This document shows, piece after piece, positions 25,098-29,935 of a stretch of DNA of 39,793 bases; position 1 is the first letter of the stretch, and each line of letters begins with the position of its first letter. A program made the translations under genes and the position numbers. Origin of the DNA: Desulfotomaculum sp. (GTDB taxonomy: Bacteria > Bacillota > Desulfotomaculia > Desulfotomaculales > Desulfallaceae); contig JAENYQ010000027.1 of NCBI GenBank assembly GCA_016841675.1, forward strand, positions 1-39,793. Direction: 5' to 3'. Below the pieces are notes generated by a model. The model did not search any database, was not told the origin of the DNA, and worked only from the letters and a program-made list of their open reading frames with translations.

Positions 25098-27197
25098 TCA
25101 AATTGCCAAACCTTGGTCCCTAAGCCGGCTCATCTTGCGCACGATGGTGGATTGGTCTACCATCAGCGCCCCGGCGGCTTTGTTGGCGCTGCCGAATTCC
25201 CTGATAGCATTGCCAATCAGCTGTCTTTCCAGCTGCATCACTGCGCTCTTCAGGGGCATGACCCCTTTTACATACACTTCCGGTTGCTGCTGTTCAAGGT
25301 TTTTAAACACGTGTGCCGGCAGGTCGCCCACCGTGATTTCCTGGCCGAGAGTGGTCACCATTAGCCTCTCGATGATATTGTCGAGCTCCCGCACATTACC
25401 CGGCCAGTGATAGTTCAGCAGGGCCTCGTAAACCCGGGGGTCGATGTTTTTGCGCAGTCCATACTGCCGTTCGTATTTTTCTCTGAACACCTGCACCAGC
25501 GGGATAATGTCTTCCTTGCGCTCCCTCAGGGGCCATATCTTAAGGGGCACCACGTTAATCCGAAAGTACAGGTCTTCCCTGAACCTGCCCTCCCGCACCA
25601 GCGTCTCCAGGTCACGGTTAGTCGCCGCCAAAATGCGCACGTTGATGGGGCGCGTCTTGCTTCCGCCCACCCGGAGCACTACCCTTTCCTGGATGACCCG
25701 CAGCAGCTTAACCTGAAAGCCCGGGGGCAAATCGCCAATTTCGTCCAGAAACAGAGTACCGTTGTGCGCCAGCTCGAATATGCCCGCCTTGCCCTCCCGG
25801 TTTGCCCCGGTGAAGGCGCCCCGCTCGTAGCCGAACAGCTCAGACTCCAGCAGGTTCTCCGGTATGGCCCCGCAGTTTACGGTAATAAACGGGCCGTCCT
25901 TGCGCTTGCTTTTGCTGTGGATCGTCGTAGCGATAACCTCTTTGCCCACCCCTGATTCCCCCAGGATTAAAACCGTGGTGTCCACCGCAGCCAAGCGCGA
26001 GGCCACCTGCAGCAGCTCAATCATTTTGGGCGAGTTAAACACCAGCCCCTCCTGGATGATCAGCTTACCCCGCAATTCGTTGAGCTCCCCCTGATAGCGT
26101 TCGCTCAGCTCCCTGGTCTGCTCCAGCTGCTCCCGCAAACTGTTCAGCTCGGTGAGGTCACGGATGTTAACCACGACGCGGACTATTTCCCCGCCCTGGT
26201 CCCTGACTGGGCTGCCGGTAATTAGGAAATGTTTTTTCTCCAATATGGTCACCGGCTTGCCCTCACGCATCACCTCGTCCACGATGGAACGCGAGTAGAC
26301 CCCGGTTTGTACCAGTTCGGACATGCTGCGGCCCTGGATTTCAGACGAGGGCAAACCGGTAATGCGTTCATGAGCCTGGTTGGCCTTCAAGATACAGCCA
26401 TCCCGATCGGTCAGCAGGATTCCGTCGTAGGACGACTCAATAATCAAATTGAGTTTGCTGTTTAGTTGTTTAACTGAATTAAGCTCTTGAGAAATCTGCT
26501 CCACTTCGGAAATATCTTGGAATATGGCCACTGCGCCTACGATTTGGCCGTTCTCGTAAATTGAACTGCGGTTGGTCAAGTAAGTTCGGTCGCCCTTGGC
26601 GTAAGTCACGGAAAGCTTACACTCGGTTTGACTCCGACCCTCATCGAGGAACTCCATTAACCCCTGGGGGATAATCACCTCCGAAAGGTGCCTACCCATA
26701 GCCTGGCTCTTGGGTCGCCGGGTCATTTTCTCGGCCGCCCGATTGTACAGGGAAACAATACCCTGGTTGTTGACGGCGATGATGCCGTTGCCCACCGAGT
26801 CCAGGATGGTTTCCACTTGTAGAAAAATCCAGTTGGCTTTTTTAAAAAGCTCTACTACTACCCTGTTTTTGTCCACCATACCGCACAGTTTGTTTGCACC
26901 GTTCAGCACCGGGAAAACTTGCCCGTGCAATGCCCAGGCGTCAACCAGGGGGACGTCTTGCTGCAGCGGAGATATCCGAGCGTCTATCACATCAACAACC
27001 CGTACCGAGCCGTTAAATACTTCGGGGCCAGCCTCAAATAAGGCATCCCTGGTGACCATCCCGACGATTTCCCCGCCCGGCCCCGCCACTGGCAAGCCCG
27101 CCACCTTATGTTCCCGGATCAACCGCCAGGCTTCGGATGCCGGCTGACCTGGACTCAGACTAATTGTTACGGGGGTCATGACATCCTTGATTAACAC
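25098..27197 (-). CDS. Sigma-54-dependent activator with CBS, PAS, PAS, AAA+ and HTH domains
   Basis: Activators of this type bind upstream sites and use ATP to open sigma-54 promoters. Domains from the chosen start: paired CBS motifs (about 3-118, starting DVMTPVTISLSPGQPASEAW), two PAS domains (about 125-235 and 250-360), a coiled-coil linker, AAA+ (Walker A GESGVGKE at 413-420, GAFTGA at 460-465, Walker B LFLDEI at 482-487), and a TyrR/Fis-like HTH at the end (GSANKAAGALMVDQSTIVRKM). The frame is open to 27281; GTG 27197 follows GGAAGGGG and gives 699 aa. CBS domains usually sense adenine nucleotides and PAS domains small ligands or redox state. It faces away from the OadB-type operon, and the gap holds the expected promoter and binding sites. 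Confidence 0.94.
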   Translation of the reverse strand: MLIKDVMTPVTISLSPGQPASEAWRLIREHKVAGLPVAGPGGEIVGMVTRDALFEAGPEVFNGSVRVVDVIDARISPLQQDVPLVDAWALHGQVFPVLNGANKLCGMVDKNRVVVELFKKANWIFLQVETILDSVGNGIIAVNNQGIVSLYNRAAEKMTRRPKSQAMGRHLSEVIIPQGLMEFLDEGRSQTECKLSVTYAKGDRTYLTNRSSIYENGQIVGAVAIFQDISEVEQISQELNSVKQLNSKLNLIIESSYDGILLTDRDGCILKANQAHERITGLPSSEIQGRSMSELVQTGVYSRSIVDEVMREGKPVTILEKKHFLITGSPVRDQGGEIVRVVVNIRDLTELNSLREQLEQTRELSERYQGELNELRGKLIIQEGLVFNSPKMIELLQVASRLAAVDTTVLILGESGVGKEVIATTIHSKSKRKDGPFITVNCGAIPENLLESELFGYERGAFTGANREGKAGIFELAHNGTLFLDEIGDLPPGFQVKLLRVIQERVVLRVGGSKTRPINVRILAATNRDLETLVREGRFREDLYFRINVVPLKIWPLRERKEDIIPLVQVFREKYERQYGLRKNIDPRVYEALLNYHWPGNVRELDNIIERLMVTTLGQEITVGDLPAHVFKNLEQQQPEVYVKGVMPLKSAVMQLERQLIGNAIREFGSANKAAGALMVDQSTIVRKMSRLRDQGLAI

Positions 27198-27293
27198 GAA
27201 TATAGCCCCTTCCAAACTTATAATTTTTGGTTGCCCAAACACCGAACTATTTAATCTATTTAGCAAAAATAATACCAACACCAGAATATCACA

Positions 27294-27311
27294 TTATGTA
27301 ATATTGCATAA
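27294..27311. promoter_or_regulatory. Candidate activator site 1
   Basis: TTATGT-AATATT-GCATAA is a dyad with 6-bp arms and a 6-bp spacer (one arm mismatch), about 100 bp upstream of the activator gene. It closely resembles site 4 at 27561-27578. Confidence 0.55.
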
Positions 27312-27323
27312 CCCATGTGTTGA

Positions 27324-27352
27324 TCTTCAGTAGTCAGTAGTCAGTAGTCAGA
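27324..27352. repeat. Tandem repeat of AGTAGTC/GTCAGAA type
   Basis: About four units of TCAGTAG occur here, ending GTCAGAA. The array at 27443-27483 is the inverted counterpart, so a long imperfect hairpin could form between them. Confidence 0.7.
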
Positions 27353-27442
27353 ACTTAAAATTCAAGAGTGCCTGGATTTTGCAAAATAAGCATGTATTTT
27401 GAAACATCCCAAATGCTTCAATTGTTTTTGCAGGTTGTTTCC

Positions 27443-27483
27443 TTCTGACTTCTGACTTCTGACTTCTGACTTCTGACTCCTGC
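27443..27483. repeat. Tandem heptamer array TTCTGAC, five units
   Basis: Five consecutive TTCTGAC units are followed by TCCTGC. The array is complementary to the one at 27324-27352 and to 22187-22213. Confidence 0.8.
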
Positions 27484-27484
27484 T

Positions 27485-27502
27485 ATATGTATTTTTACAT
27501 AA
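27485..27502. promoter_or_regulatory. Candidate activator site 2
   Basis: ATATGT-ATTTTT-ACATAA matches site 1 at 14 of 18 positions and contains a perfect inner dyad, TATGTA/TACATA. Confidence 0.45.
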
Positions 27503-27503
27503 C

Positions 27504-27521
27504 CTATGTATTGTTGCAATG
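27504..27521. promoter_or_regulatory. Candidate activator site 3
   Basis: CTATGT-ATTGTT-GCAATG matches site 1 at about 12 of 18 positions. It lies one base after site 2, in a paired arrangement. Confidence 0.4.
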
Positions 27522-27560
27522 GCATTAAAAGTCTTATTCCATCTGGTTTACTCAGGCTTG

Positions 27561-27578
27561 TTATGCAGATACGCATAA
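27561..27578. promoter_or_regulatory. Candidate activator site 4 (best dyad)
   Basis: TTATGC-AGATAC-GCATAA is a perfect 6-6-6 dyad. It lies 45 bp upstream of the -24 element of the sigma-54 promoter. Confidence 0.55.
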
Positions 27579-27621
27579 ATACGGTTCCTTTAACCTTGCC
27601 CCTACGGAGATTATATCACTG

Positions 27622-27637
27622 GCATCTAAATTGCTTA
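27622..27637 (+). promoter_or_regulatory. Sigma-54 promoter of the OadB-type operon
   Basis: TGGCATCTAAATTGCT has the invariant GG (27623-27624) and GC (27635-27636) separated by exactly 10 nt and matches the TGGCAC-N5-TTGCW consensus at nearly all positions. It points to the operon at 27951-29547. The leader would be about 300 nt and contains repeat modules B (27779-27842) and C (27862-27927). Confidence 0.8.
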
Positions 27638-27778: not shown

Positions 27779-27927
27779 TGTCATCCTGAGCGTTAGCGAA
27801 GGATCTGGGCTTTAAGATTCTTCGCTGCGCTCAGAATGACAGGCTTAATGACAAGGTTTTTCACTTCGTTGTATTCATAGCAATGACACAACGCTGTACC
27901 ATTTACTGAGTTAACGGTATAACCATG
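27779..27927. repeat. Composite dispersed repeat (modules B and C) in the operon leader
   Basis: A module B hairpin (27779-27842) and a direct module C (about 27862-27927, ending GAGTTAACGGTATAACCATG) lie inside the predicted leader of the OadB-type operon, just before the first ribosome site. Confidence 0.8.
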
Positions 27928-27950: not shown

Positions 27951-28124
27951 ATGATTGTTACCGAATCCGTTGTCATCGCCCTAATCGTTTTCTTTGCGGG
28001 AGCACTAATCTCCTACATGGTGGCCGGCTTAATCAAAGGAATTTTTTGGGGCATCAGGTTCCGGGGGAACGTGAAAATAAGAGCGGAGAAATGGAAAGGC
28101 GCCACGGCGGCAACCAAATCATAA
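27951..28124 (+). CDS. Small single-pass membrane protein, first gene of the OadB-type operon
   Basis: The 57-aa protein has one long hydrophobic segment (about 4-33, VTESVVIALIVFFAGALISYMVAGLI) and a basic tail (RFRGNVKIRAEKWKG). I do not recognise a family with certainty. Size and place recall the small gamma subunit (OadG) of sodium-pumping decarboxylases, which also has one N-terminal membrane helix, but the zinc-binding/proline-rich tail of OadG is absent. ATG 27951 is 8 nt after AAGGAG; a GTG at 27942 in the same frame is too close. 26 bp separate it from the next gene. Confidence 0.8.
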   Translation: MIVTESVVIALIVFFAGALISYMVAGLIKGIFWGIRFRGNVKIRAEKWKGATAATKS

Positions 28125-28150: not shown

Positions 28151-29365
28151 ATGCCGGACATTGAATTCGTCAACCTGTTCCAGGGCATTGCCACACTACT
28201 GGCCGCCGACACTTCCATAACCGTGGCTAGGCTGGCGCTGATTGCGCTTGGCATTGCTCTTGTTTATCTGGGGGCTAAAAATTTGCTCGATCCGCTGCTG
28301 ATGATCCCCATGGGTTTCGGCATGGCCTCGGTCAACGCGGCTGTGTTGTTCCTGGCCGGCGGGCAGATGGGCACAATATTCATTGACCCGCTGGTGAGCA
28401 ACCCTTCACAGCTGATGGCAGTATTGCAGATTGACTTCCTCCAACCCTTGTACACCTTAACATTCAGTAACGGGCTGATTGCCTGCTTTATCTTCCTGGG
28501 CATCGGCGTGATGACCGAGGTCGGCTACGTGCTGGCCAACCCCTTCAGCAGCATGTTTATTGCCATCTGCGCTGAGCTTGGTACAGTAGCCACCTTTCCC
28601 ATCGCTGTTGCGATGGGGCTGGATTACAACGAAGCGGCTTCCATAGCCATGGTCGGCGGCGCCGACGGACCCATGGTCCTCTACACTTCCCTAATGTTGG
28701 CTCCGGACCTGTTCGTGCCCATAACTATAGTAGCTTATCTGTATCTCAGTCTTACTTACGGCGGTTATCCGTACTTAATTAAACTACTCATTCCCAAACG
28801 CCTGCGGGGCATCCAAATGGACCTGAGCAAGATACCCACCGTCACACCGGGGGAGAAAATAGCTTTTTCCATTATCACCAGCACAGTGCTGAGCCTTTTG
28901 TTCCCCGTGGCTGCCCCCTTGTTTATGTCCTTTTTCCTGGGGGTGACCGTCAGGGAGGCCAACCTGAAACACTATATCTCTTTCATTGAAGGGCCCCTTC
29001 TGTACGGGTCCACATTCTTCCTGGGAATTCTGCTGGGGGTATTATGCGAGGCCAACACTATTATGAACCCCAAAATTCTCATTCTGCTGGTGCTGGGCAT
29101 CCTGGCCCTGCTGTTGTCAGGAGTGGGGGGCATCGTCGGCGGATACGTGCTGTACTTTATCAACAAAGGAAAATTTAACCCCGTAATCGGGATCGCCGGG
29201 GTCTCCTGCATTCCAACCACCGGTAAAGTGGCCCAGAAAGCGGTCACCGAGGCCAACCCCCAGTCGCTTATCCTGCCCTATGCCATCGGGGCTAATATCA
29301 GCGGGGTAATCACGTCTGCCATCATTACAGGCATCTACGTAACCCTGATTCCAGTGCTAAAATGA
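28151..29365 (+). CDS. Sodium-ion-translocating decarboxylase beta subunit (OadB/GcdB/MmdB family)
   Basis: This is the membrane subunit that couples decarboxylation to sodium export in oxaloacetate, glutaconyl-CoA or methylmalonyl-CoA decarboxylases. The 404-aa protein has about nine to eleven membrane segments. MIPMGFG and the re-entrant motif GGADGP (Asp172) are present, and the last segments keep the Asn, Gly and Ser of ANISGVITSAI that align with sodium-site residues of Klebsiella OadB. In most relatives GGADGP is followed by T; here it is M. No alpha (carboxyltransferase) or biotin-carrier gene is adjacent. It is likely under sigma-54 control through the promoter at 27622. Confidence 0.93.
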   Translation: MPDIEFVNLFQGIATLLAADTSITVARLALIALGIALVYLGAKNLLDPLLMIPMGFGMASVNAAVLFLAGGQMGTIFIDPLVSNPSQLMAVLQIDFLQPLYTLTFSNGLIACFIFLGIGVMTEVGYVLANPFSSMFIAICAELGTVATFPIAVAMGLDYNEAASIAMVGGADGPMVLYTSLMLAPDLFVPITIVAYLYLSLTYGGYPYLIKLLIPKRLRGIQMDLSKIPTVTPGEKIAFSIITSTVLSLLFPVAAPLFMSFFLGVTVREANLKHYISFIEGPLLYGSTFFLGILLGVLCEANTIMNPKILILLVLGILALLLSGVGGIVGGYVLYFINKGKFNPVIGIAGVSCIPTTGKVAQKAVTEANPQSLILPYAIGANISGVITSAIITGIYVTLIPVLK

Positions 29366-29547
29366 CGACCTACAGGCGAGTCTACTGGGTGGCGGGGACG
29401 TGCACAGCTTTTGCAGGGGTTTACCTGGTCCGAGCGCTATCGCTACAAGCGACGGACAACTGGAGATTCGGGGTTTTGCTGGGGGGCTACGCGTTGGCCA
29501 TTCTGGGCCTGTTCGTAATCACAATGGGCACGCGAAGAAAAGAATAA
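29362..29547 (+). CDS. Small two-helix membrane protein, third gene of the OadB-type operon
   Basis: The 61-aa protein has two hydrophobic segments (about 6-25 and 36-55) joined by a short polar loop, with a basic C-terminus (TRRKE). Its ATG overlaps the pump stop codon (ATGA), which is good evidence for a real, coupled gene. No family recognised. A structural partner of the pump is inferred from coupling alone. Confidence 0.78.
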   Translation: MTTYRRVYWVAGTCTAFAGVYLVRALSLQATDNWRFGVLLGGYALAILGLFVITMGTRRKE

Positions 29548-29599: not shown

Positions 29600-29935
29600 T
29601 AATATGGCATAACCAAGATTGGCATTGCTATGAATATCAAGAAGGATCCTGTCATTCTGAGCGCAGCGAAGAATCTTAAAAGATAAGATCCTTCGCTATC
29701 GCTCAGGATGACAAGCTTAATCTGAACAAAGGTAAGTTGTTCATTTATCGTGGTGCGAGTACGCATGTTAATTCTGAGCGTAGCGAAGAATCTAAGTATT
29801 TTTTAAGCTGCTTTAGAGATTCTTCATTTCACTTCATTTAATTCAAAATGACACGGACCTAGACTTTTTCAGTGCCCTCGGGGGCAGACATCTTTTTTCG
29901 AAAACCGTAAATAGCTGCCTGTACCCTTTTTGGTA
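29600..29935. repeat. Cluster of dispersed repeats between 29547 and 29992
   Basis: In order: a fragment of module C (about 29615-29640), a module B hairpin (29650-29713), an inverted module A (29731-29764), a degenerate module B (29768-29853), and a degenerate GGGGACAGGC-type palindrome (about 29877-29935). No gene is seen. Confidence 0.75.

Follow-up and report, generated by a model that had tools for sequence, protein, structure and literature searches.

Three essential enhancer sites scaffold assembly of the NorR oligomer (PMC2941729). The locus described here lies in a 39.8-kb stretch of Desulfotomaculum DNA, which is termed the window. As in NorR/norVW of E. coli, the gene for a sigma-54 activator (bEBP) is divergent from the proposed target, and there are three sites. 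The NorR sites are likewise short-spacer dyads, GT-N7-AC. The window sites read TGY-N6-RCA, are set out in steps of 19 bp and 57–60 bp, and adjoin the gene for an activator with a CBS/PAS sensor where NorR has GAF.

TyrR is the second point of comparison. TyrR boxes have the form TGTAAA-N6-TTTACA with an invariant G-N14-C, and a strong box lies next to a weak box (PMC4374768). The window shares with TyrR an HTH of the HTH_50 family, an 18-bp dyad of 6-6-6 layout, and strong and weak neighbours. TyrR works with sigma-70 in E. coli. In contrast, the window has an activator with GAFTGA and a -24/-12 promoter. We considered and rejected the identity of the dyads as TyrR boxes. The window sites conform to TTATGY-N6-RCATAA and are not TyrR boxes because only 8 bp, not 14, separate their invariant G5 from C14.

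Nie et al. 2019 describe UAS motifs of bEBPs in Clostridiales (PMC6615313). There too, the EBP gene adjoins its operon and multiple UAS accompany a sigma-54 promoter. In that description, the XhpR and PrdR motifs are TGT/ACA with a 10–12-bp spacer. Judged by the motif so described, the window dyads stand apart from the TGT-N10-12-ACA class because their spacer is 6 bp. The same work gives an XhpR target in Desulfotomaculum and others, 'hyp-memP' (a small hypothetical and a membrane protein), which could be the window's operon. A literature search on the motif letters found no relevant paper.

The dyads very probably belong to a known kind, the upstream activator sequences (UAS) of bEBPs. The example itself is new. 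We place at roughly 90% the probability that the dyads are enhancer sites of the adjacent activator, driving a sodium-pump-like operon of oadG-like and oadB-like genes. Support for this predicted role comes from a motif above chance, a conserved three-site geometry, dyads that track the activator and a mirror-image cassette at a paralog. The expected setting for a UAS is also present. The adjacent activator combines AAA+/GAFTGA with an HTH, a -24/-12 element lies downstream, rpoN is in the genome, and repeated dyads are conserved across orthologous loci at promoter distances varying from 59 to 236 bp.

Activator, promoter and putative target operon

The activator gene occupies 25098–27197 on the minus strand (ORF 25098–27281, translation and Pfam). 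GTG 27197 is the likely start, because it stands behind the ribosome-binding site GGAAGGGG and because of where the CBS domain begins. The encoded protein consists of CBS, PAS, PAS, an AAA+ domain with a GAFTGA loop, and a TyrR-type HTH. Pfam matches are to Sigma54_activat (PF00158, 1.5e-70), CBS (4e-12), PAS, HTH_50 (3.9e-08) and AAA_lid_14, and the translation contains both GAFTGA and Walker motifs. The best NCBIfam match is PrdR, below its cut-off. The rpoN gene of the host genome was recognised by Sigma54_DBD (1.5e-60).

A gap of ~751 bp separates the activator start from a 57-aa ORF that begins at 27951 on the plus strand. The sequence-only reading had put a sigma-54 promoter downstream of the dyads. 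We located it at 27620–27635 on the plus strand, where TGGCATCTAAATTGCT matches TGGCAY-N5-TTGCW at 11/11 positions. This is the sole 11/11 sigma-54 match within the window, and such a match arises in 0.0008 of gap shuffles. All three orthologous gaps contain a perfect counterpart.

The 57-aa ORF (27951–28124) encodes a membrane protein that matches an OadG-like gamma subunit in location and type. Its tblastn counterparts lie upstream of oadB in L051, L053, L055 and L066, and a search of Pfam and NCBIfam profiles gave zero matches. Next is a 404-aa OadB/MadB-like carboxybiotin decarboxylase beta subunit (28151–29365, plus strand; PF03977, 6e-110). This protein scores above the cut-off of TIGR01109. 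The malonate-type profile TIGR03136 is closest, at 520 bits against a cut-off of 597. Neither a carboxyltransferase nor a biotin carrier gene adjoins the oadB-like gene. A 61-aa ORF (29362–29547, plus strand) overlaps the oadB stop codon, and the operon probably ends with it. A family search with this ORF gave zero matches; it is possibly a small pump subunit. By eye, GTCATNCTGAGCG...TTCTTCGCTGCGCTCAGAATGACAG-like palindromic repeats are visible between the sigma-54 promoter and oadG (27781–27842), and again behind the operon (29652–29717 and from 29771 onward).

Dyads in the intergenic gap

The sequence-only reading had listed four 18-bp dyads of common form TTATGY-N6-GCATAA, the last of them perfect and two side by side. 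All four 18-mers are there. We scored each by its matches, out of 12, to TTATGY-N6-RCATAA. Dyad 1, TTATGTAATATTGCATAA (TTATGT-AATATT-GCATAA; 27294–27311), scores 12/12 and is a 5/6 inverted repeat. Dyad 2, ATATGTATTTTTACATAA (ATATGT-ATTTTT-ACATAA; 27485–27502), scores 11/12 and is the first of the pair. Its weak partner, dyad 3, CTATGTATTGTTGCAATG (CTATGT-ATTGTT-GCAATG; 27504–27521), begins 19 bp on, scores 8/12 and is not significant by itself. Dyad 4, TTATGCAGATACGCATAA (TTATGC-AGATAC-GCATAA; 27561–27578), is the third site of the cassette described below; it scores 12/12 and is indeed a perfect 6-6-6 palindrome. The common form thus holds strongly at 27294, 27485 and 27561 but only weakly at 27504.

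The bare core TGY-N6-RCA occurs exactly four times in the gap, at these four sites. Three sites reach at least 11/12. Among 5000 dinucleotide shuffles of the gap the maximum was one such site, seen in 102. Palindromy was not enriched: the gap contains six 6-6-6 inverted repeats of at least 5/6, with 4.7 expected. Hence, significance rests on the common sequence. This near-shuffle count would fit dyads that are chance palindromes in AT-rich DNA. However, the common sequence, its conservation and its fixed spacing in otherwise diverged gaps go far beyond shuffles. Conservation already refutes a chance origin, to which we attach next to no probability.

Across the 3.84-Mb genome, TTATGY-N6-GCATAA has four exact places, two of them inside the gap. 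We rejected other genome-wide matches as chance. These are C93:15046, within a coding region; C125:18970, behind a heterodisulfide-reductase-like operon and with no sigma-54 site identified; and C114:8039, behind a tRNA-like stretch.

Conservation in orthologous gaps and in other relatives

The sequence-only reading had proposed to check whether orthologous gaps conserve the dyads, and the dyads passed this check in 3/3 activator/oadG-oadB gaps. The gaps are from G004, G013 and G007, which are other genera of the same family (activator 70–78% and OadB 84–90% identical). We relied on three other genera because three congeners have neither the oadB operon nor an activator of comparable closeness. 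Each gap has a dyad pair 19 bp apart and, counting from the first dyad, a third at +76 to +79. Dyad 2 is kept in L051, L053 and L055, and the dyad 3 core, ATGY-N6-GCA, is kept at +19 in all three gaps. Every gap also has a counterpart of dyad 4, offset by +76 to +79 relative to dyad 2. The cassette (0, +19, +76 to +79) was seen zero times in 3000 shuffles of each of the four gaps. In a MAFFT alignment of the four gaps, most invariant columns belong to the dyad pair or the -24/-12 element, and the DNA has otherwise diverged; the third dyad is misaligned because of indels. The distance from third dyad to sigma-54 promoter is 59 bp in the window, 88 bp in G007, 136 bp in G004 and 236 bp in G013. 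Such freely varying distance is as expected of an enhancer.

Dyad 1 behaves differently. Counterparts at the same place are absent from L051 and L053, and L055 has a dyad near the activator. A GTCAG-repeat element separates dyad 1 from the conserved cassette. The GTCAGWA-type repeats (27327–27354 and 27442–27479) form inverted arms around ~88 bp, and the arms have several further genome copies with differing interiors. Dyad 1 may be a species-specific extra copy with a different role, perhaps on the activator's own promoter. On these comparisons the predicted functional unit is the three-site cassette at 27485–27578, not four sites. The enhancer role proposed at the outset is therefore upheld by orthologous conservation and by a motif that tracks the activator, but for three sites instead of four.

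The activator gene has a candidate -24/-12 promoter, TGGTATTATTTTTGCT, on the minus strand at 27262–27277 (10/11), 17 bp from dyad 1. This sigma-54-like site probably serves the activator gene itself. In each of the four divergently arranged loci, a sigma-54 site of 10–11/11 points toward the activator, 44–201 bp upstream of the start (shuffle p per locus 0.0175, 0.0325, 0.007 and 0.0005). The divergent sigma-54 promoters in these loci, together with the 27262–27277 site and the extra dyad at 27294, suggest autoregulation of the activator.

The activator (68–71%) is encoded with no adjoining oadB in five further relatives (G006, G009, G012, G014 and G015), yet its gene is still preceded by 1–2 dyads. 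Pairs are spaced 17 bp before these lone activators, versus 19 bp before targets, and sit ~50–180 bp from the activator start. In these five loci without a divergent target we found no sigma-54 site near the activator. Hence, the dyads there must act otherwise, perhaps as autorepressor sites. Relatives that keep the pair beside a lone activator, like the minus-strand sigma-54-like site in the window, could mean that the four dyads mainly serve autoregulation, with the oadB operon controlled otherwise. Against this, an ArsB/DASS-like transporter gene sits between activator and oadG-oadB in G007, and the cassette has remained by the promoter of oadG-oadB, 1.4 kb away from the dyad that accompanies the activator. 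G012 has a pair, along with a 10/11 sigma-54 site, in front of another, separate oadG-oadB operon ~6 kb off. The arrangement in G015 is similar, with motif and sigma-54 site before another oadG-oadB operon. We consider a mainly autoregulatory role very improbable and favour control of the oadG-like/oadB-like operon.

The pair pattern occurs in 6/113 genomes of the order, and all six carry the orthologous activator. It was not found in the remaining 107 genomes searched. Among more distant activators (L059–L062 and L065–L067) the TTATGY dyad cassette is absent, and some of these loci have sigma-54 sites. The cassette is also absent at OadB homologues (80–83%) in another family (L066 and L068).

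A mirrored paralogous cassette and the proposed mechanism

The same genome encodes a second CBS-PAS activator (G000:C4:10074-12182), 53% identical to that of the window. Its gene adjoins an operon of the methylmalonyl-CoA-decarboxylase type, with mmdA-like, biotin-carrier and OadB genes. Upstream of this operon (L090 3600–3830; G000:C4:6099-6329), a 10/11 sigma-54 site is accompanied by three related dyads. In mmdA-type promoters a single TGY-N6-RCA site comes first, and a pair 19 bp apart follows 53–57 bp on. This cassette, ~126–160 bp from the promoter, is the mirror image of that in the window. The mirror geometry is present in 7/9 mmdA-type promoters of the host and relatives, and in 0/2000 shuffles of each. 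What the paralogs share is thus a pair 19 bp apart and a single site ~53–60 bp away.

Window-type and mmdA-type dyads have the inner core ATGYA/TRCAT in common. Of 44 window-type half-sites, 27 have TTA as the outer triplet; in the mmdA type this triplet is mostly CAA, TAA, CGA or TGA. Both HTHs contain the recognition segment DQST-VRK, and their first helices read SANKAA/SANRAA (window) versus STYKAA/STHKAA (mmd). The likeness and difference of the HTHs match those of the dyads, whose inner ATGY/RCAT core is common to both types and whose outer bases differ.

These data also bear on whether some other dimeric regulator, such as a repressor, uses the dyads as its operators and also controls the region. 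An 18-bp palindrome does not by itself identify the binding protein, and the pair before lone activators is in a place fit for repression. However, the motif follows the activator gene wherever it is located, the 107 other genomes searched in the order yielded no pair pattern, and each of the four cassettes is followed by a perfect -24/-12 site. Moreover, for an unrelated regulator it would have to be coincidence that this geometry recurs at the paralog's target with its outer bases shifted. We regard a different regulator as improbable, and the adjacent activator as the protein expected to bind.

The mechanism that we propose is as follows. Dimers of the activator would bind the dyads through their C-terminal HTH. 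The strong site at 27485 and the weak one at 27504, together with 27561, would gather dimers, probably as a hexamer, the weak site being filled cooperatively beside the strong one. Three dyads are conserved, as many as a hexamer has dimers. DNA looping would then bring the AAA+ ring into contact with RNA polymerase-sigma-54 at 27620–27635. ATP-driven remodelling would allow transcription of the oadG-like/oadB-like operon to begin. As the inducing cue, the CBS/PAS part probably senses a metabolite.

Tentatively, and with the odds somewhat against so specific a claim, we suggest that two paralogous CBS-PAS activators have kept a fixed three-dyad cassette matched to the three dimers of a hexamer. 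The orientations are opposite and the promoter distances differ. Under this suggestion the outer bases, TTA versus mostly CAA/TAA/NGA, would separate two sodium-pump regulons in one cell. The locus offers a compact putative sigma-54 enhancer from a bacterial group with few dissected examples, and it connects a CBS-PAS activator with OadB/MadB-like sodium-pump genes. The mirror cassette is a natural test of whether a bEBP hexamer reads geometry, or orientation and promoter distance. The paralogous pair also bears on the specificity of activators with nearly identical recognition helices.

A further target is possible in G009. Here, a 61-aa Cys-rich ORF is preceded by a perfect sigma-54 site, with four dyads upstream of that site. 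The region is L093 2844–3260 (G009:C1:1774843-1775259), and the ORF begins MKTNIVKTPCKTCKNCGGTNCF.
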